Assembly: GCA_014239585.1 (NCBI GenBank)
Contig: JAAZYP010000003.1
Span: 1 to 32,997 of the forward strand
DNA from: Nanobdellota archaeon
GTDB taxonomy: Archaea > Nanobdellota > Nanobdellia > UBA10117 > ARS21
Direction: 5' to 3'
DNA: 32,997 nt
Under the pieces are notes generated by a model. It was not told the origin of the DNA. It searched no databases and worked only from the letters and a program-made list of their open reading frames with translations. The number at the start of each line of letters is the position of its first letter. Within the stretch, counting starts at the first letter, position 1. Both the position numbers and the translations under genes were made by a program. Shown in pieces: positions 1-11,568 of the stretch.

Positions 1-253
1 GCATAAATCTGAACCAACTAAACCATTTGAATTTAGAACCTTTAGGATCATATTGATAAACTAAAAATTTATTATGCGTATCTTGATATGTTGAAGTCCA
101 AATACTTGGCCATATCCCAGAAGAATATCCTAACAAAGTATCTAATTTCAAAAAAGATCCGTCCTTCTTCAATGAATTCATAAACGGAGTATTCGGACCA
201 ATATAATCGGGACGTACTGCATCCAAAAAGAAAATTAAAGTTTTACTTTTCAT
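1..253 (-). CDS. Partial alkaline-phosphatase-superfamily protein (type I phosphodiesterase/sulfatase-like), N-terminal part only
   Basis: Own translation from ATG at 253: MKSKTLIFFLDAVRPDYIGPNTPFMNSLKKDGSFLKLDTLLGYSSGIWPSIWTS...; LDAVRPDYI resembles the AlkP-superfamily metal-binding N-terminus. Open to the left edge; ATGA overlap with the upstream GT4. Confidence 0.6.
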   Translation of the reverse strand, partial: MKSKTLIFFLDAVRPDYIGPNTPFMNSLKKDGSFLKLDTLLGYSSGIWPSIWTSTYQDTHNKFLVYQYDPKGSKFKWFSWFRFM

Positions 254-1236
254 TTTTTTAGTTTACCAAAAGCATTCTTAAACTTTACTGATTGAGATTT
301 ATCATTTATTTTTTCTGATTTAGATTTTAATGATTTTAGTAAGTTTAGTTTATCAGTATTACTCAAACTCATAAGTTCAATAATTTTATTTGATATATCA
401 ACTACACTTTTTTCATTACAAATAATTTTGGATTCAGTTAGTACCTCATTATTACCGTTTTTTCTACCAGTGATAGGTATTACTCCACTCAACGAATACT
501 CCAAACCATTGCATCCAAACGGCTCGAAATTTGAAACATTATATCCAATCAAACTATTATTTAATTCAGAATTAAGATTCTTAACAAATCCCTTAAACTC
601 AATTTTGACACCCAAATCTGATGCAAGTGACTTCAAATTATCTGAATTTCCTGGACCAATAAACACCAATCGACTTTCTGGAATTTTCATCTTAACTTTT
701 ACGAAAGCCTTAATCAATCGTTCGAGATTCTTTTCAGATGAAATTCTACCCACGTGAATAATTTGTTTAGAATTTAGATTTGGTTTAAATTTAAAGTTAT
801 TAACTTCCACTGGCGGATAAACAACTTCAGAATTAATTTTCAAATATTTTTTAATAGATTTAGCAGATAATACTGAATCCGAAATCACATAGTCGATTTT
901 ACCCAAGAATAAATTTAAAATTACCTTTTTCAAACCATTGAGATGGTTATAGTCCCGAAGAAATAGTAAATCGGCATCATGATAAATTATATTTATTTTT
1001 GGTCTCACGATTTTCAGTACGCTCGAGAAATAAACTCCTGACATACCCTCACATAGAAAATTTCCAGACGGATACTTAAAATAAAGATAAGGCAATCTCA
1101 AAAAAGTAAAAATTGGTATAAATATAATTGGAATATGATTAGGTATTGGCGTTATCAATTCCGAATTTACACTTTTTGCAAAAATTAGATGTGATCGGTG
1201 TGAATTAGGTACATTTTGAACAAAGTAATTTTTCAT
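250..1236 (-). CDS. GT4-like glycosyltransferase
   Basis: ORF 328 aa; GT-B C-terminal pattern (IIHVGRISSEKNLERLIKAF...EPFGCNGLEYSLSGVIPI). Confidence 0.85.
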   Translation of the reverse strand: MKNYFVQNVPNSHRSHLIFAKSVNSELITPIPNHIPIIFIPIFTFLRLPYLYFKYPSGNFLCEGMSGVYFSSVLKIVRPKINIIYHDADLLFLRDYNHLNGLKKVILNLFLGKIDYVISDSVLSAKSIKKYLKINSEVVYPPVEVNNFKFKPNLNSKQIIHVGRISSEKNLERLIKAFVKVKMKIPESRLVFIGPGNSDNLKSLASDLGVKIEFKGFVKNLNSELNNSLIGYNVSNFEPFGCNGLEYSLSGVIPITGRKNGNNEVLTESKIICNEKSVVDISNKIIELMSLSNTDKLNLLKSLKSKSEKINDKSQSVKFKNAFGKLKK

Positions 1237-1237
1237 A

Positions 1238-2737
1238 TTAATTTTTTAGTTTATACAAATTTATAATATCATTTATTTGATTTATCGAAACAACTCTTAA
1301 AATAAATAATGATGCAATATAAATTACTCCTGATATTCCTACAACCGTAATCGTTTCAAGCCATATATTTGAAAACTCCAAATAATTTTTCAACAAATTT
1401 AATGTTCCGAGAAAGATGAATCCCGAAACAATTGAATATACTATTCCTTTAAAATCAATTGTTAATTCTTTAAATTTACGTGAAATGGCTCTAAAACTCA
1501 AAATACTCATTAGTGAATATCCAAATAAGGTAGATAGCGCTGCACCAACCAAACCATAAATTGGAATTAAAAATAAATTCAAACCGATATTAAAAATTGC
1601 TCCAATCGAAGTTATACGAAGATTTGATTTTGCCTTCTCTAACCCAATTAGAATATGAGTATTAATTACGAAAAATACAGATAACACCGAAGACAAACTT
1701 AAGATAGATAGTGCTTTTGCGGCAGGAAGATATTTATCTGTAAATAAAACCCGAATAACTAATTCCGGATAAACAATGAGTATCATTGCAATAGGCAATA
1801 ATAAAACAATATTTAATTTGTAAAGAACATTAACTAATTTATTCATAACTTCAAATTTTCGTTTAGAATACAATGATGCAGTTAAAGGAATCAAAATTAA
1901 AGTAAATGCGCTTGAGAAGAATAAAATTAATTTTGCAGTTGGAACCGCAACATTATACAGACCAACTTCTTCCAAATTTCTTAATGCAGTTAGCATAATT
2001 GTATCAGTATAATTCAAAACATAAACTCCAAACGCAAATAATACGTTCAGTAATGCAAATTTCTTAATTCTCGCATAATTCAAGGAAACATTAGTTATTT
2101 TTGTTTTTATTTTTTCCAAATGTTTAGCTTTAACTAAAAAATAAAAAATAAAACTCGGAATTGCATTTCCGATAAACAGTGCAAATATTGGGCTCCAAAT
2201 CCCAAATCCAAATAGTAGGAATAAATAAAGCAGTAAAAGTTGTACAATAATTTTAACTACCTCATAAAATGAATATAATTTTTGATCTTGAAAGGTCTGT
2301 AAAAGAGTATTTATGAAATTAAAGAAAATATCAATAAAGAAATAAACAAAACCCAGTGCGATAAATAAATAAAATGCAGCAACATCTCTGAAATAATAGG
2401 ACGATAAGAATTTTGAAGATAATAATACTAAGATCAAAAATAATATACCGTTTCTAATTTTATATCTCAAAAAATAATTAATCAATGAATTAAATTTCCC
2501 ATTTTTCCGTTTACTCAAAAATTCTGAACCAAATTTTTGAAATGCAGGAGAAATACCCATATCTATCATAGTAGTTGCAACCAAAAAGAAAGTTACAATA
2601 GAATAAAATAAACCATATTCATAAACGGTTAAATTCTGAATCAATAATAATCGATATAAAAATGCTAATGCTGCGGTAATTACAGTTGCACCACTTATCC
2701 AAATTCCACCACTTATCAATTTTCGTTTCAAACTCAT
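1238..2737 (-). CDS. Polysaccharide/lipid-linked oligosaccharide flippase (Wzx/RfbX-like, MOP superfamily)
   Basis: ORF 499 aa, many TM segments, N-terminal SGGIWISGATVITAALAFLYRLLLIQNLT typical of Wzx-like proteins; genomic context. Confidence 0.85.
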   Translation of the reverse strand: MSLKRKLISGGIWISGATVITAALAFLYRLLLIQNLTVYEYGLFYSIVTFFLVATTMIDMGISPAFQKFGSEFLSKRKNGKFNSLINYFLRYKIRNGILFLILVLLSSKFLSSYYFRDVAAFYLFIALGFVYFFIDIFFNFINTLLQTFQDQKLYSFYEVVKIIVQLLLLYLFLLFGFGIWSPIFALFIGNAIPSFIFYFLVKAKHLEKIKTKITNVSLNYARIKKFALLNVLFAFGVYVLNYTDTIMLTALRNLEEVGLYNVAVPTAKLILFFSSAFTLILIPLTASLYSKRKFEVMNKLVNVLYKLNIVLLLPIAMILIVYPELVIRVLFTDKYLPAAKALSILSLSSVLSVFFVINTHILIGLEKAKSNLRITSIGAIFNIGLNLFLIPIYGLVGAALSTLFGYSLMSILSFRAISRKFKELTIDFKGIVYSIVSGFIFLGTLNLLKNYLEFSNIWLETITVVGISGVIYIASLFILRVVSINQINDIINLYKLKN

Positions 2738-3561
2738 TTTAACACCTTAATTACTTTCTTGACAGATGGATTTTTAAGTTTTTTAACAATAACATCGCCC
2801 CAATTCAATATTTCAGAATTACTATTTAAAAATATGACCGCAGTATTTGTACCACTTGCAACCGCAACATGTGAAAATCCTGAATCGTTACCGATATACC
2901 AATCCAACTTAGATAATATTGCCGCAGATTTGCGTACAGATAATTTCCCCTTTACAAGATTAATTAGTTTATTTCCAAATTTAGATACAACTTCAGAATT
3001 ATATTTTGTATCATAACCCAGTAAGTATATTTCAAAATTTAATTTTATTAACTCAGAAATTAATGTAATATATTTATCGACTGACCAAGCTCTATCGATA
3101 GATCTGGATTCGATATTTATTCCAATCTTCGTTTTATTTGTGTTTTTTATATATTTATCTGAAGCCTTCAACTCATGTTTATTGAAATAGAATTTTGCTT
3201 TATTTGAAGGCAGATCTTCCTTTAGGATGGTTGGAGTACCAACCAAATTAGATAAAAACGAGAATAAATATTTGTTTTTTTGAGTAATGATGCATAAATC
3301 GTATTGTCTTATTTTATTTAATGCTGAAAGAATACATCCAAAGGATGCATAGATCTTTTCAAAAATAGAAATGTCCGTCGCTAGTATATCTAGGCGTTTA
3401 TCCACAATTAGTTTACCTGCTAACGGATTACCTGAATAACAATCCTTTATTATTGAACTTCCAATAACATCTGTTTTTTTACCAAAAGAGTGTAAAATTG
3501 AAGTTTCACGGATAGTGTCACCAACAATTCGTCCCCGAAAATTCCACATAACAACTTTCAT
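2734..3561 (-). CDS. GT9 family (ADP-heptose:LPS heptosyltransferase-like) glycosyltransferase
   Basis: ORF 275 aa; C-terminal motif WYIGNDSGFSHVAVASGTNTAVIFL as in GT9. Confidence 0.75.
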   Translation of the reverse strand: MKVVMWNFRGRIVGDTIRETSILHSFGKKTDVIGSSIIKDCYSGNPLAGKLIVDKRLDILATDISIFEKIYASFGCILSALNKIRQYDLCIITQKNKYLFSFLSNLVGTPTILKEDLPSNKAKFYFNKHELKASDKYIKNTNKTKIGINIESRSIDRAWSVDKYITLISELIKLNFEIYLLGYDTKYNSEVVSKFGNKLINLVKGKLSVRKSAAILSKLDWYIGNDSGFSHVAVASGTNTAVIFLNSNSEILNWGDVIVKKLKNPSVKKVIKVLK

Positions 3562-4209
3562 TTAATTCCAAAACCAAAACATACTTTCATTGAATTCATA
3601 ATTTTATTAAACGGAAAGTTAAATTCATCATTATCAAAGGTATTAAATTTAGTAAAGTTTGCCATATTAAAAAATCGTTTTAGCGATTCTTTATTATACG
3701 GTCTTATGTGAGTGGGATCATTATAAAATTCATAAGATGGTCTAGGTGTAAGGACAAACAATATTCCATTTTTTTTCAACATTTTTCTGGCCCGCTCAAA
3801 AAATACAGGAACATCCGATACGCTAAGATGTTCAATTAAATGTAAAGATACTATAAAATCAAATTTTTTAGAAGGTAATTTATCAGTAATTATGTTTTTA
3901 TTAATGAATTTTACATTTTTTGGAAGCATATTCTGGACGTTAGAAATATCCATCCCATACAATTCAGCGTTAGGTCGGACATTACGTATAAAATTTAAGA
4001 ATCCACCTTGAGCACAACCAATGTCTAATAATTTGATTTTACCCCCCCCCCCTTTGTTTGGAATTAGTCAGCAATTTATTCAAAATAAAGTAATATCTTG
4101 ATATAAACGGGCTTACAGACAAAATTTTAAATAAAATTTTTTTTAGAACACTCATCGGTTTATGATTAATAGAGTTATAATATTTTTCAGGATAAGATTC
4201 AAGACTCAT
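3558..4209 (-). CDS. Class I SAM-dependent methyltransferase, frameshifted at an 11-G homopolymer (candidate phase-variable gene)
   Basis: From ATG at 4209 the frame reads MSLESYPEKYYNSINHKPMSVLKKILFKILSVSPFISRYYFILNKLLTNSKQRGGG then TAA. With one G fewer it reads ...RGGGKIKLLDIGCAQGGFLNFIRNVRPNAELYGMDISNVQ... into the listed ORF 3558..3962, supplying SAM motif I (LLDIGCAQGG). Span is 652 nt (3n+1). Confidence 0.85.
4042..4052 (-). repeat. Homopolymeric tract, 11 consecutive G on the coding (minus) strand
   Basis: Plus strand reads ...gatttta-ccccccccccc-tttgtttg; exceptional in this AT-rich window. Confidence 0.97.
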
Positions 4210-5339
4210 TTTATTAAAACACCCCTATACACTTTTAATATTTTGTTAGTCATAACAGCTAAAGTATGATTTTTATTTACCTTTGTGTAACCATTTAATC
4301 CAATTTTTTCCAAATGAGTTTTAGTCATATCTTTAATTTTCAAAATATATTTTGATAACACTTCAACATTTTTTGAAGGAATAACAAATCCATCCTTTCC
4401 TTGATAGATTAATGATTTATGCTCTCCAACATCAGTTACAAGAACAGGTAATTTTGCAGACCAAGCTTCAAGCAACGTTAAAGGTAAACCTTCAAATAAT
4501 GACGGAAGAATGAAACAATCTGACGAAACATAATAATTTTTCAATTTAGTATCGGATATTCTACCAGTGAATTTAACTAATTTATTCAATTTTAGCGTTT
4601 TAGATTTAGCTTGCAATTTATTGCTTTCAGGACCAGATCCGACGATAATAAATTCAACTCCATCCAACTTATTTTTAATTTGACTTAATGTGTCGAGTAA
4701 AATAGAAATCCCCTTCTGTGGATGCAGTCTACCAACAAATAAAAATCTAAATTTTTTAGAGCTCGTTTTAGTAATACCGCTAAATTTATTGACATCAATC
4801 GCGCTATGAATAACTTTAATTTTTTTATTCAAGTTTTTCATCTTGAAAAAAGTTCCATCAACACTAATTTCAGTATCATAAATTATTCCTGTCTGTAAAA
4901 ATCTTTCAAATATTCCTAGACCCAACGCAAACGGATTAAAACCATACATTTGAAAAATAGATTTTATTCCACTACCATGAACTGTATATACTATTGGAAT
5001 TCCTAAATATTTACTCATAATTTTTCCTGGTAAACCAGCTAAATTCGCATGAGCATGGATTAAATCATATTGTTTGGTTTTATTCAGTTTTTTAATTGCT
5101 CTACAAACATTAATACACCACTTCAATCGATTAATTATATTAAATTTTGATTTTGATTTACCTACTCGAATTACGTTAAAACCACCCAAGTTTGAAATCG
5201 TAGGTCTACCATCCAGATTCATAGTAAATAAATCGACATCATGACCTCTTTCCACCAACGTTCGAGATAAGTCAGAAGTATGTATTTGACCGCCTCCCCA
5301 TTGCGGTTTCCACGCATCAATCATCATACAAATTTTCAT
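4206..5339 (-). CDS. GT4-like glycosyltransferase
   Basis: ORF 377 aa; N-terminal PQWGGGQIHTSDLSRTLVERGHDV, C-terminal FLFVGRLHPQKGISILLDTL and LPSLFEGLPLTLLEAWSAKLPVLVTDVG. Confidence 0.92.
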   Translation of the reverse strand: MKICMMIDAWKPQWGGGQIHTSDLSRTLVERGHDVDLFTMNLDGRPTISNLGGFNVIRVGKSKSKFNIINRLKWCINVCRAIKKLNKTKQYDLIHAHANLAGLPGKIMSKYLGIPIVYTVHGSGIKSIFQMYGFNPFALGLGIFERFLQTGIIYDTEISVDGTFFKMKNLNKKIKVIHSAIDVNKFSGITKTSSKKFRFLFVGRLHPQKGISILLDTLSQIKNKLDGVEFIIVGSGPESNKLQAKSKTLKLNKLVKFTGRISDTKLKNYYVSSDCFILPSLFEGLPLTLLEAWSAKLPVLVTDVGEHKSLIYQGKDGFVIPSKNVEVLSKYILKIKDMTKTHLEKIGLNGYTKVNKNHTLAVMTNKILKVYRGVLIK

Positions 5340-5797
5340 TTTTTCATTTTTGATATTAAATCAGTGGTTGATTCAATTTTTTCTCCACTAAATAATATTT
5401 TTCCACCATATTTTTCCACAGATTCTCGTTCCAACAAATTTTCAGAATATTCGTTCCCTTTAACATGAATATTGGGTTTAATTATTTCTAACCAAGTTAA
5501 CGGAGTTTCTTCTTCAAAAACGAATGCGTAGTCAACACAATCCAATGCTGAAACTATCCGAACCCGTTTATTTTCAGAAATAATTGGTCTATCTTCAGAT
5601 TTGTATTTTTTAATTGATGAATCTGAATTCAAACCCACAATTAGAATGTCCCCTTGTTTTTTCGCGAATTCTAAATTGGATAAATGTCCCACATGTAACA
5701 TATCGAACGCACCGTTGGTAGTGACCAGTGTTTTAGATTCAGACCTCAGTTGCTTTACGAGTGATTCTAATTCAGATATATTAATTATTTTACCCAT
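5336..5797 (-). CDS. D-glycero-beta-D-manno-heptose 1-phosphate adenylyltransferase-like cytidylyltransferase-fold protein (HldE C-domain/RfaE2 type)
   Basis: TTNGAFDMLHVGHLSNLEFAKKQGDILIVGLNSDSSIKKYK...RPIISENKRVRIVSALDCVDYAFVFEEETPLTWLEIIKPNIHVKGNEY. Confidence 0.9.
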   Translation of the reverse strand: MGKIINISELESLVKQLRSESKTLVTTNGAFDMLHVGHLSNLEFAKKQGDILIVGLNSDSSIKKYKSEDRPIISENKRVRIVSALDCVDYAFVFEEETPLTWLEIIKPNIHVKGNEYSENLLERESVEKYGGKILFSGEKIESTTDLISKMKK

Positions 5798-6873
5798 AAT
5801 ATTTTTTTAGCCAACCGGACAATCTCCACAGGATTAATACGATTTATTCTTAAACCTCCATCTTCCTTAAATTCTTTCAAATGAACATTAATTAGAGGTC
5901 TGCCTTCGGATTTATATATGGAATGATTTTTTGAACCATATGGACTAAATCTAACTGGCGTATTTGGACCAAATAAACCGATTGTGGGTGTTCGCTGAGA
6001 AGCACCGACGTGCATCGGTCCAGTGTCATTTGAAATAACTAGATCTGATTTTGAAATCAAGCAAAATAAGTCTTTATTTTTTAATTTACCATTAGTGATT
6101 ATTGCCTTTGCATGATTCAATTCTGAATTTTTTAAGATAAGTTTATCATTTTCAATCTCTGAATTAGAATAACCTGTCAAAATGAAGCAAACATCTTTTC
6201 GATCTAATCGTTTCATAACTTTTGAAAAATTAATAGGAGACCAACATCTATTTTTATTTGTTGAACCAACACCACCGTGAATAATTATTTTTTTCTTATT
6301 TCCGATACCTTTCAATAAACGTTTAACTTTATTTTCAGAACCTAAACCATATTTAAGTTTTATCAGGTTTTTTGGAACAAAGTACTTTCCGATAGGTTTC
6401 ATCAGATCAAGAAATGTCAAAACAACATGTTGTTTATCATTGTAAATTATATTCGCATCCCATTTATCTTTACGGGAACAAGTATTGAATCCAATGGAGT
6501 AACCATTAATAAATTTAGCTAACCATAAAGATATGTTTACAAACGGTTCGGTATCAATGACAATATCATATTTATTTCGTAAAGATAAAATTTTTCTCAA
6601 ATCCTTTAATGGATTCAAGCTAATAATCTTCGATTTATTTATGAATTTTTGACCTAAGAATATATCTTTGTTAAATTTACTACATAATACGTCAACTTTG
6701 TAACCTTTCTTAGCTAGTTGAGAAATTAAAGGCAAAGTTAGAATACTTTCACCCATCGACCAAAGTCGAATGATTAGAATTCGCTTACCTTCCGGAAGGG
6801 ATTTGGAAGGAATCAAATCCAAAATGAAATTAAACTCTCCAATTAGATCATCTAAGATTTTTTTATTTTTCAT
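5785..6873 (-). CDS. GT9 family (ADP-heptose:LPS heptosyltransferase-like) glycosyltransferase
   Basis: RILIIRLWSMGESILTLPLISQLAKKGYKVDVLC...IHGGVGSTNKNRCWSPINFSKV...LVISNDTGPMHVGASQRTPTIGLFGPNTPVRFSPYG. Confidence 0.92.
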   Translation of the reverse strand: MKNKKILDDLIGEFNFILDLIPSKSLPEGKRILIIRLWSMGESILTLPLISQLAKKGYKVDVLCSKFNKDIFLGQKFINKSKIISLNPLKDLRKILSLRNKYDIVIDTEPFVNISLWLAKFINGYSIGFNTCSRKDKWDANIIYNDKQHVVLTFLDLMKPIGKYFVPKNLIKLKYGLGSENKVKRLLKGIGNKKKIIIHGGVGSTNKNRCWSPINFSKVMKRLDRKDVCFILTGYSNSEIENDKLILKNSELNHAKAIITNGKLKNKDLFCLISKSDLVISNDTGPMHVGASQRTPTIGLFGPNTPVRFSPYGSKNHSIYKSEGRPLINVHLKEFKEDGGLRINRINPVEIVRLAKKILWVK

Positions 6874-7837
6874 CAGTCAACTCTCTTTGAATTTCAATTA
6901 AAGATGTGCTTGCAGTTCCAGATTTAGATACAACCATCCCTGAACAAACATTAGCAAATTCTGATGAAAGTATAAAATCAGTATCTAAACTTGCTAAGAC
7001 AAATGCAGCTAATGCTGTATCTCCTGCACCACTAACATCTTTCAATTTTTTCTTATCAAAAATATCAATTTTTGTAGAGTTATTATTTTTGATTTCGTGA
7101 ATTAATGAACCTTTATTCCCTAAAGTTAGAAAGATATTGGAATTATATTTTTTCGATAAATTTAATGCAATTTCATCAACCTTCAATTCATTTCGTTGAA
7201 TACCTAAGGCCATCATTGCTTGCCTCAAATTAGGTTTTAGTAAATATACATTCTTAAACAAATCATATTTTTCAGGCTTTGAATCAACATAAATTGGCTT
7301 ATTTTTAGTTTTCAAATAATTAACAATTGACTCAGTAATAACGCCTTTTGCATAATCTGAAATTATAATTGCATCAATATCTTGAACGGAATCAATCATA
7401 TCCAAAATTTCTTTTTCAACATTACTGTCTACAATATTTCGAATCTTTTCAACATCTTTTCTTAATAAATGAGTATTTGATGCCACAAATCTCTTTTTGT
7501 GAGTTGTTGGAAAATTATCATAAATTAATCTATTTGTTATATTAAATTTATCCAAAAGAGAATTTATTTGTTTAGCACTATCGTCATTTCCTACAATACT
7601 AATTATTTCGACATTCGCACCCAAAGTACTAAGATTTAATGCAGAATTCCCTGCACCGCCCAACATATATTTGGAAGTATTTGGTTCAAATACTGGAACT
7701 GGAGCCTCAGGACTAATACGATTTGCAAAACCATAACAAAATTCATCAAGCATAATATCTCCAATTACTAAAATTTTTCTTTTACTGAAATTGTTTTTCT
7801 TAATAAAATTAAGAATTTTTGAATAATCCATCTTCAA
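6863..7837 (-). CDS. PfkB-family heptose 7-phosphate kinase-like protein (HldE N-domain/RfaE1 type)
   Basis: KILVIGDIMLDEFCYGFANRISPEAPVPVFEPNTSKYMLGGAGNSALNLSTLGANV...DVSGAGDTALAAF. Confidence 0.92.
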   Translation of the reverse strand: MKMDYSKILNFIKKNNFSKRKILVIGDIMLDEFCYGFANRISPEAPVPVFEPNTSKYMLGGAGNSALNLSTLGANVEIISIVGNDDSAKQINSLLDKFNITNRLIYDNFPTTHKKRFVASNTHLLRKDVEKIRNIVDSNVEKEILDMIDSVQDIDAIIISDYAKGVITESIVNYLKTKNKPIYVDSKPEKYDLFKNVYLLKPNLRQAMMALGIQRNELKVDEIALNLSKKYNSNIFLTLGNKGSLIHEIKNNNSTKIDIFDKKKLKDVSGAGDTALAAFVLASLDTDFILSSEFANVCSGMVVSKSGTASTSLIEIQRELTDEK

Positions 7838-8387
7838 TATATTTACAAATAATATGAATTATCAAGATATGACTTTCTTGAATTCTCGCAGTATTCTCGT
7901 CATTAACAATTAAATTAACATCAACTAAATCTGAATCTTTCAAAATACCGCCATCTCGGCCATTTAATACGATCGTTAACATATCTTTAGCTCGAGCTTT
8001 TTCTAAGGCTTTAATAATATTTTTTGAATTTCCTGAAGTAGTCAATCCGATAAAGATATCGTCCTTTTTACCTAGCCCCTCTACTTGTTTTGAAAATACG
8101 CGCTCATATCCGTAATCATTAGAAATTGCAGTTAAATTAGTTAAATCGGAAGATAAACAAATACCGGGAAGTGCTTCTCGTTCCAACTCAAATCTACCTA
8201 ATAATTCACCTACAAAATGACTTGCTTGAGAAGAACTACCGCCATTTCCTGCAGCTAAGATTTTATTGCCATTTCTCAAAGCATGAACACACATTTGCCC
8301 AACTTTTTCTAAATCCGCAATAAATTCAGGAGTTAGTAATTTAGTTTTAACGTCAATACTCCGTCTAATTATTTTATCGATATTCAT
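7809..8387 (-). CDS. gmhA: Sedoheptulose 7-phosphate isomerase (phosphoheptose isomerase), SIS domain
   Basis: AAGNGGSSSQASHFVGELLGRFELEREALPGICLSSDLTNLTAISNDYGYERVFSKQVEGLGKKDDIFIGLTTSGNSKNI: characteristic GmhA motifs. Confidence 0.93.
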   Translation of the reverse strand: MNIDKIIRRSIDVKTKLLTPEFIADLEKVGQMCVHALRNGNKILAAGNGGSSSQASHFVGELLGRFELEREALPGICLSSDLTNLTAISNDYGYERVFSKQVEGLGKKDDIFIGLTTSGNSKNIIKALEKARAKDMLTIVLNGRDGGILKDSDLVDVNLIVNDENTARIQESHILIIHIICKYIEDGLFKNS

Positions 8388-8419: not shown

Positions 8420-9097
8420 TTATGATTTAGCACCAAATCTCAATTTTATCAATTTATATAAAACTTCAATTGATCTTATAATTGTATTTCCGCCCTTATT
8501 AATTGTATCGGCAGAATAACGAATATTTACTGGAATTTCGCTATACTTAAGTCCATTCTCTTTAATCCGATATATAATCTCAGAGGCATGAGCCATACCG
8601 TTCTCGTTAATTTTTATCTTACGTGCAGCATTTGAATTAAATGCCCTAAAACCGTTATGCGCATCACTAAGTTTTATTCCAAGAAAAATTCTTTCAACCA
8701 AGATACTGCCTTTCAACAGAATCTTGCGTTTCAAAGGCAATTTCGTCTTTTTCAAGAAACGAGAGCCTAATACTACATCATAACCAGTATTAATTTTTTT
8801 TATAAATTTTTTAATTTCACTAGCCCTGTGCTGTCCATCAGCATCAAAAGTTACAATTATATCTGATTCTGAATCTAATGCGGATTTGATGCCGATTCTA
8901 ATTGATGCACCTTGTCCCAAGTTAGTTTTATTATTGATTAATTTAACTTTCCCAAATTTCTTTACTATTTTTGAAGTATTATCTGACGAACCATCATTAA
9001 CAACTATAATTTGATAAGGGTATTTTAACAATTTTTTCAAAACTTTTCCAATTCGATTTTCTTCATTGAAAGCAGGTATAACAACTGTTGTTTTCAT
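8420..9097 (-). CDS. GT2 dolichol-phosphate mannosyltransferase-like (polyprenyl-phosphate glycosyltransferase)
   Basis: TTVVIPAFNEENRIGKVLKKL...QIIVVNDGSSDNT...NLGQGASIRIGIKSA...IIVTFDADGQHRASEI. Confidence 0.93.
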   Translation of the reverse strand: MKTTVVIPAFNEENRIGKVLKKLLKYPYQIIVVNDGSSDNTSKIVKKFGKVKLINNKTNLGQGASIRIGIKSALDSESDIIVTFDADGQHRASEIKKFIKKINTGYDVVLGSRFLKKTKLPLKRKILLKGSILVERIFLGIKLSDAHNGFRAFNSNAARKIKINENGMAHASEIIYRIKENGLKYSEIPVNIRYSADTINKGGNTIIRSIEVLYKLIKLRFGAKS

Positions 9098-11568
9098 AAT
9101 ACATAATTTTCTGAAAATTCAGGCAATTTTTCAGGATCTAAAAATCTTTCAACATTATTTAAATTGGTCGGATAATCAAGTTTCCAAATTTTTATTGGAC
9201 CAATAATCCTTCCATTCATGAAAGATAACGGAATTGTATCAGTATACACTAAGTTATATCTTTCAATAACTTCAGAATGTAAGTAAAGTCTAGTAAATAA
9301 TCCGTCTTTTACTTTCTCAGAAAGATATAACATTGCTCCAACTTCATTTACTTGATCACCATTTCTCATAGGAATTATTTTTACACAAGAATCTAAATTA
9401 CCTTCGAAACTAAACTTTATATCGTGAATATATACACATCCAATTTCAAAATCTCGGTTATAATTATCTGAAACTAACGTTGCAGTAGCAGGAGCATAAA
9501 CTCCCAAATCATCAATATAAATATTAATTTCGGAGATATATCCTTGACCTGAAGCTATAATTCGCTTATTATCAACAAAAGTTTCATCTAAATACCATTT
9601 TCCGCGATAAGTTAATTTATTTCCATCTCTAACTTCGTTAACTTCAGATAAACCAAATGTCCCAATAATTGATTTTCGGTCATTATTTTTATCTGAACCT
9701 AAGTATGCAAATGCACCATATTTTCCAAGCTCTTCTGCAGAGTATAATAGGTGAGTAGTATCATGCGAATTAAAATATTCAAGCGATTCGTGCGGATCAG
9801 TATGAGTCATTCCATATCTTGCCAAAGTATAAATCATAAATCCTCCTCCCGGCTTACCTCCATCCTGTACCGACGCCCGTTTTCCCACCGATTGCGTCCA
9901 ATAACCATAATCCCACCAATGTGCAATGACTGAATCATCAGCAGTATGATTACTCAAAAAAGTCATTGAACCTTCCCATTGACCAGGTAAACTTGAGCCA
10001 GTTCGAAGATTCTGATTATAACTCAGTTCAGCAAGATTAAAAGATAAAATTGCAACAACCAATATTATTGCAATCTTCCCAAATTTTAGTTTTTTTGAAT
10101 GTTCATAAATATCATTTAATGCATATGCTGCCAAAACTACAACCGCGGGTCCAAATAAAAACAAGAATCTTGTAGCAGTTCTTGCAAGAAGTCCAGAAGT
10201 TATGAATAATGAAAGAATCAATAATAATTTCGGATTGGCCAGATTACTTACTTTATCGTATTGACCAATATGATAGAGATATGAATAATAAATTATGAAT
10301 AATAGTCCGATAACTCCCAAAAATTGTAGATATAAATTTTGCATAATGCTAACTGAATAACTCCAGTTACCTAATAAAACTAAAGTTATTGATCCGACGG
10401 TAAGACTACTCAAAATAAATCTATTTTTCTTATCAAGTTTTTTGAATATTATCGAAGATAAAATAAATAATCCCAGGATAGATATAAAAATTAAATATCC
10501 GTAATTACTAAAATAGCTATTCCCGCTCATAACAAATGCCCTACTTACTTCAGATGTAGTAAAGTCTACCTTCGAGGAACCCCCCGCATTTATTAGATTA
10601 AAGACGAATGATTTCAAATCAACAATTTTAAATAACGCATTGAAAATAAATCCGCCAATAATTGCAACAACGATTGATGCAACTTGATTAGGAATTCTAA
10701 ATTTAAATTTATTTATTAATTTACTAACAAATAAAATCCCTAAAGTCGCTAATGAAAATAAAAGACCATAATTACCTAAATCGAATTTCCCAAAAGGAAT
10801 AAGCATAATTGAAAAAGTCAAAAGCCAAGTTAAATAATAATTCAAATCAATTTTAGCAAAAAAGAAGTTGAATAAATAAAATAAAGATATTGTAATTATA
10901 AGAAAAGGATACGCGCTCCAAGATAGAGCCATTAGCCAAGTGAATATTCCGGCAGTAAAACCATATATATACTTTTTATTTGATTTGAAATCCAATCCTC
11001 GACTGAAGAAGTATATTGCGCTAAAAAAGAATAACATTGCTAGTGCTTCATGATCTGCAAAACCAGCACCTGTTCGGAAAATATAACCTGGAATTATGGA
11101 AAGAAATAATGCCGAAATTAATGCAATTCTTTTTGAAAAAATATTTCGTACAAATAAATAGAATGGAACTAGCGATATAACCATAATTACTGGAGGATAA
11201 ATAATATGAGCCATTTCCTGAGATAATCCAAATAATCCTAAAAATTTAGACCAGTATGCCATGAAATAAGGGAATAAATCTACAGATGGCTCATGACCGA
11301 AAGGAGGATTTCTAAATAAATCGGGAGACGAAAGAAAACCGTTCTGAATTATTTCTTGAGCTTGTCTAAAATAATAATACGGGTCCAATCCAACAAGATA
11401 CTTACCTTTCAAAAGACGAAGATTTCCAGTTCTCAGAAATAATGCTAACAGTGCAACCAATCCGAATAATGTGTGTTCCTTGTATTTAAAATCATAAACT
11501 TTTTTGTAAACACCCTTTACTAAATTAAAAATATTTGATAAATCAATATACTCTGAATCTTTACTCAT
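9094..11568 (-). CDS. aglB: Archaeal oligosaccharyltransferase, STT3 family (AglB)
   Basis: ORF 824 aa; LLKGKYLVGLDPYYYFRQAQEI, SAYPFLI, catalytic HWWDYGYWTQSVGKRASVQDGG; multi-TM N-half. Confidence 0.95.
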   Translation of the reverse strand: MSKDSEYIDLSNIFNLVKGVYKKVYDFKYKEHTLFGLVALLALFLRTGNLRLLKGKYLVGLDPYYYFRQAQEIIQNGFLSSPDLFRNPPFGHEPSVDLFPYFMAYWSKFLGLFGLSQEMAHIIYPPVIMVISLVPFYLFVRNIFSKRIALISALFLSIIPGYIFRTGAGFADHEALAMLFFFSAIYFFSRGLDFKSNKKYIYGFTAGIFTWLMALSWSAYPFLIITISLFYLFNFFFAKIDLNYYLTWLLTFSIMLIPFGKFDLGNYGLLFSLATLGILFVSKLINKFKFRIPNQVASIVVAIIGGFIFNALFKIVDLKSFVFNLINAGGSSKVDFTTSEVSRAFVMSGNSYFSNYGYLIFISILGLFILSSIIFKKLDKKNRFILSSLTVGSITLVLLGNWSYSVSIMQNLYLQFLGVIGLLFIIYYSYLYHIGQYDKVSNLANPKLLLILSLFITSGLLARTATRFLFLFGPAVVVLAAYALNDIYEHSKKLKFGKIAIILVVAILSFNLAELSYNQNLRTGSSLPGQWEGSMTFLSNHTADDSVIAHWWDYGYWTQSVGKRASVQDGGKPGGGFMIYTLARYGMTHTDPHESLEYFNSHDTTHLLYSAEELGKYGAFAYLGSDKNNDRKSIIGTFGLSEVNEVRDGNKLTYRGKWYLDETFVDNKRIIASGQGYISEINIYIDDLGVYAPATATLVSDNYNRDFEIGCVYIHDIKFSFEGNLDSCVKIIPMRNGDQVNEVGAMLYLSEKVKDGLFTRLYLHSEVIERYNLVYTDTIPLSFMNGRIIGPIKIWKLDYPTNLNNVERFLDPEKLPEFSENYVL

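Follow-up and report, generated by a model that had tools for sequence, protein, structure and literature searches.

Random on/off switching of surface sugars through poly-G tracts is used by bacteria such as Campylobacter, and most known cases of slippage-based phase variation are bacterial. In Campylobacter jejuni, the gene cj1426 encodes a capsular heptose 6-O-methyltransferase that is phase-variable through poly-G, for which reporter switching was reported at about 2-3e-2, and C. jejuni strains carry 12-29 such tracts (PMC8437040). A survey of homopolymers published in 2010, which covered 81 bacteria and 18 archaea, observed poly-A/T to be over-represented, near gene 5' ends (PMC2831843), and a 2025 review deferred phase variation in archaea to later studies (PMC11868660). 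An earlier note on the DNA described here had remarked that comparable switches are scarcely described in archaea; in agreement with this, no poly-G glycan switch in archaea was found in the literature searched, which was open-access and consisted mainly of titles and abstracts.

We analysed a window of 32,997 nucleotides, which is one whole contig (C15) of the 443,919-bp, 21-contig assembly (G000) of a Nanobdellota archaeon, with a completeness of 86.7% and a GC content of 31.3% over the 443,919 bp. The window carries an operon on its minus strand, the features of which are listed here in operon order, i.e. in the minus direction.

9094-11568, minus strand: AglB/STT3-like oligosaccharyltransferase (TIGR04154, 105.9 bits, cut-off 450)
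8420-9097, minus strand: GT2 glycosyltransferase (profile matches)
7809-8387, minus strand: GmhA-like sedoheptulose-7-phosphate isomerase (196.7 bits, cut-off 209.45)
6863-7837, minus strand: HldE kinase-like protein (rfaE domain I, PfkB; 258 bits, cut-off 345)
5785-6873, minus strand: GT9 (heptosyltransferase-like) glycosyltransferase (profile matches)
5336-5797, minus strand: HldE nucleotidylyltransferase-like protein (rfaE domain II; 158.5 bits, cut-off 181.5)
4206-5339, minus strand: GT4 glycosyltransferase with an ATGA overlap with the split gene (profile match)
4039-4209, minus strand: 5' ORF of the split methyltransferase, 56 aa ending in SKQRGGG, with TAA right after the tract in the 11-G frame (sequence and codon model)
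4042-4052, minus strand: 11-G tract, the proposed switch
3558-4041, minus strand: 3' remainder of the methyltransferase in another frame, with SAM motif I, joining the 5' ORF at 10 G (PF13489 and codon frame)
2734-3561, minus strand: GT9 (heptosyltransferase-like) glycosyltransferase with an ATGA overlap with the restored gene (profile matches)
1238-2737, minus strand: polysaccharide flippase-like membrane protein (PF01943)
250-1236, minus strand: GT4 glycosyltransferase (PF00534)

The GT9, GT4 and GT2 glycosyltransferases, the flippase and the AglB-like gene bear out the earlier reading of the locus as a glycosylation operon. Its setting is more specific than plain glycosylation: a GmhA-like gene, split HldE-like genes and a pair of GT9 genes are indicative of heptose. 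The GmhA-like protein and both HldE-like domains show clear homology, yet each scores below its NCBIfam equivalog cut-off for the ADP-heptose enzymes, and they are therefore called 'like' only. The HldE-like gene is split here (GmhA/HldE region, window 5336-8387) and fused in a genome of the same family (L206:14680-16681). The window also encodes thermosome-, archaeal pilin- and SecDF-like proteins, recognised by eye, which together with the AglB-like protein mark the organism as an archaeon; its placement in DPANN is suggested by the small genome. A scan of the window for Rfam families and tRNAs gave zero matches.

With a poly-G tract inside a methyltransferase gene, a surface-glycan cluster containing heptose genes and a one-base change acting as on/off, the locus resembles cj1426, which would be its closest functional analogue. 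It differs from cj1426 in lying in an archaeon, in an AglB-type operon and as the single tract of its genome; switching and substrate are predicted here, and the likeness is one of build. It shares with the cases in the 2010 survey the idea of homopolymers in coding genes as a means of reversible inactivation, and differs from them in that the homopolymer is a long run of G and the gene belongs to an archaeal glycan operon.

On the minus strand the sequence at the tract reads AAACAAA-G11-TAAAATC, with the Gs at 4052-4042, exactly where the earlier note had placed them. Eleven is the consensus length in a draft assembly; in the sequence as assembled, there is no doubt about the tract or the split gene. 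The 56-aa frame starts with the ATG at 4209, which overlaps by ATGA with the stop of the GT4 gene lying upstream. From 4209 to 3558 the span is 652 nt, or 3x217+1, and with 10 G (also 7 or 13) a single intact 216-aa ORF is read across it, ending at 3558 in a stop that shares an ATGA with the start of the GT9 gene downstream. With 12 G or 9 G, a stop is reached after about six codons at most. A change of one G thus takes the methyltransferase from a complete ORF to a truncated one or back. The 56-aa frame with its overlapping start, the arithmetic of ON at 10, 7 or 13 G and OFF at 11 G, and the coupling of the restored ORF to the GT9 gene had all been claimed beforehand, and all were confirmed in the sequence.

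A codon model trained on the genome prefers the ATG frame 5' of the tract and the other frame 3' of it, and neither stretch contains a stop. The 216-aa read-through product was identified as Methyltransf_23 (PF13489; E 3e-19, 69.6 bits against a cut-off of 27, residues 54-186), and SAM motif I, LLDIGCAQG, lies shortly downstream of the G tract, which upholds the earlier assignment as a SAM methyltransferase. NCBIfam and PDB matches of the methyltransferase (P0001) are weak and fall on other methyltransferases. We also considered a start within the frame that follows the tract, and rejected it: this frame opens just 15 nt before the tract, and there is no ATG, GTG or TTG there. The first such codon of this frame is codon 83, and because it is past motif I, an active enzyme is not expected from the 11-G allele. 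Some full-length protein could nevertheless be obtained from this allele if transcriptional or ribosomal slippage occurred on the G run, and a long homopolymer followed immediately by a stop does resemble slippery sites in general. We regard such recoding as very improbable, since the site is conserved in no homologue and the known cases of transcriptional slippage are mainly at runs of A or T.

Runs of G or C were counted over the 443,919-bp assembly, and their numbers were 2605 (3 nt), 359 (4), 44 (5), 4 (6), 1 (7), 0 (8-10) and 1 (11). The methyltransferase tract is thus the sole G/C run longer than 7 nt, and the sole run of at least 9 G, in 444 kb, against approximately 0.004 runs of at least 11 nt expected for the whole assembly under a first-order Markov model. 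The repeat far exceeds chance length, and hence it is not due to chance. GGG makes up 5.3% of glycine codons in the whole assembly, and one hexamer repeated four times is the only other simple repeat of similar length. In the same assembly, A/T runs of at least 8 nt are several-fold rarer than the Markov prediction, and the longest A/T run is no longer than 10 nt.

The sequence could have been misread at this one point, such that the true count is 10 G, the gene is intact and the eleventh G was written by sequencing or assembly. A long G homopolymer, represented by one consensus in a draft assembly and with its surroundings all intact, is compatible with such a miscount. However, the window's other long operon genes have open frames, and as an overall impression, not a gene-by-gene tally, no general problem was noticed at the 9-10-nt A/T runs of the genome. 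We consider a miscount unlikely, though with a real share of the probability; a run of 10 G is also slippage-prone, so a miscount would change the called state and not necessarily the mechanism.

Homologues of the methyltransferase were sought in genomes of the genus, order and class, in GTDB contigs and in viral contigs; the best is 39% identical, the range is 26-39%, and none of them has the tract. The gene looks accessory, since a genome of the same family (G003) possesses the GT9, GmhA, fused HldE-like and flippase genes and has no matching methyltransferase. This accessory character, together with the single occurrence in the lineage, would fit a fresh pseudogene, in which a methyltransferase that was dispensable and had no contingency role was lost through one slippage event. 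We find this rather improbable, as the 216 codons show no further lesion and their codon use is intact, and as a neutral origin leaves an 11-G run unexplained where the next longest G/C run is 7. The earlier note took the gene to be probably under selection and not decaying; the basis for this view here is that the codon statistics and the domain are intact to either side of the tract.

Of the 371 genomes of the phylum, 133 contain nine or more consecutive Gs. Among 143 tracts that were classified, 19 interrupt an open frame on the strand carrying the Gs; one of these is the tract of the window, and 16 are in reverse transcriptases, identified through Pfam or the motif GMPLGN(L/Y)TSQFFAN...YVDD. 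Runs of exactly 9 G were not counted as support, as they are often in frame or outside genes. The idea that poly-G marks glycan genes in the phylum was rejected, the gene-splitting tracts being mostly in reverse transcriptases. A search of the 371 genomes for poly-G followed by methyltransferase motif I returned only the window locus and one match that does not read as motif I. At L057:672-4009 a 10-G run splits a long frame (667 + 443 aa, with a DUF2341 match) out of frame, and this may be a candidate switch in another large protein.

The reverse transcriptases carry their repeats mostly at one site, the linker upstream of GMPLG. In the repeat-free copies fetched, this linker is 45-57 nt long and in frame in every case. 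A simple repeat was observed at the linker in 26 distinct copies (poly-G in 23, and poly-C, CT and AG in one each), of which 5 are in frame and 21 out, a ratio that is biased since some were fetched for a shortened match. Among copies found only through a run of at least 9 G, 3 of 17 are in frame, which is compatible with one third (P 0.13). The repeat loci at the GMPLGN linker are L025, L026, L032, L033, L038, L043, L045, L050, L051, L094, L095, L104, L116, L123, L125, L129, L159, L246, L248, L255-L260 and L263. Runs of 10-14 G or C were also seen elsewhere in such reverse transcriptase genes (L028, L112, L117, L130, L154); four of these five are out of frame and L117 (12 G) is in frame.

Adenine-specific repeat pairs of the template/variable type, about 0.3-0.6 kb apart, were identified in 15 of 20 regions scanned (L275-L277, L279, L280, L282, L283, L285-L288, L291-L294), which indicates that the reverse transcriptases belong to diversity-generating retroelements. 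The pairs are 70 nt long and differ almost only at A (6-19 positions); L292 and L293 surround repeat-free copies, and the distance to the reverse transcriptase was checked for part of the regions. The occurrence of several repeat types at one site would suggest recurrent selection for instability at the linker, and the linker repeats resemble a switch that turns the hypermutation enzyme on and off. The words frameshift and homopolymer are absent from the main text of a survey of 31,007 retroelements (PMC8144416). In these relatives, as in the methyltransferase, poly-G or other simple repeats set a gene in or out of frame; the gene of the window is of a different kind and function, and a search of its own genome for a retroelement reverse transcriptase gave no match.

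Profiles for MutS_V and NucS_C gave zero matches in the genome of the window, which is 86.7% complete; across 14 control genomes MutS_V matched 11 and NucS_C 7. This is suggestive of an absence of MutS/NucS mismatch repair from the genome.

Taking these observations together, we favour slipped-strand phase variation of the methyltransferase as the best explanation, and hold it to be fairly probable. A one-G change repairs both gene junctions exactly, other lengths stop at once and the next start is past motif I. In a genome otherwise poor in long homopolymers the run is an extreme outlier, codon use on both sides is genome-typical in the expected frames around an intact methyltransferase domain, and the gene sits in a glycan operon with heptose-type genes. 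The lack of a MutS_V or NucS_C match points the same way, as does repeat-driven frame variation in the class relatives, in a different gene and at one fixed site. Against it stand the presence of only one such tract in the genome compared with 12-29 in C. jejuni strains, an architecture that is unique among the 371 phylum genomes and has no homologue with the tract, and the association of poly-G tracts in the phylum with reverse transcriptases and not with glycan genes. Of the phase-variable switch proposed in the earlier note, the anatomy, the ON/OFF arithmetic, the methyltransferase and the glycosylation operon stood, while homologues, at 39% identity or less, offered no tract in its support.

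According to the proposed mechanism, the G run would gain or lose Gs by slipped-strand mispairing during replication. With 10 (7, 13) G, a 216-aa SAM-dependent methyltransferase would be made, which most likely methylates a sugar of the operon's glycan, plausibly a heptose as judged from the neighbouring genes. With 11 or 12 G, a stop within six codons of the tract would leave no catalytic domain, and in this OFF state the GT9 and flippase genes downstream may be less tightly coupled to the gene in translation. We infer that tract length varies in the population, and that the variation is reversible and under selection. The tract is probably a switch of a known kind in an archaeal form.

It is quite possible, and we put it forward tentatively, that frame switching by repeats is a general strategy of the class, applied to heptose-glycan methylation here and to the retroelement reverse transcriptase, and with it targeted hypermutation, in many relatives. 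A glycan-methylation switch in a small-genome archaeon would imply that the cell surface is under pressure to vary, exerted for instance by viruses or partner cells.
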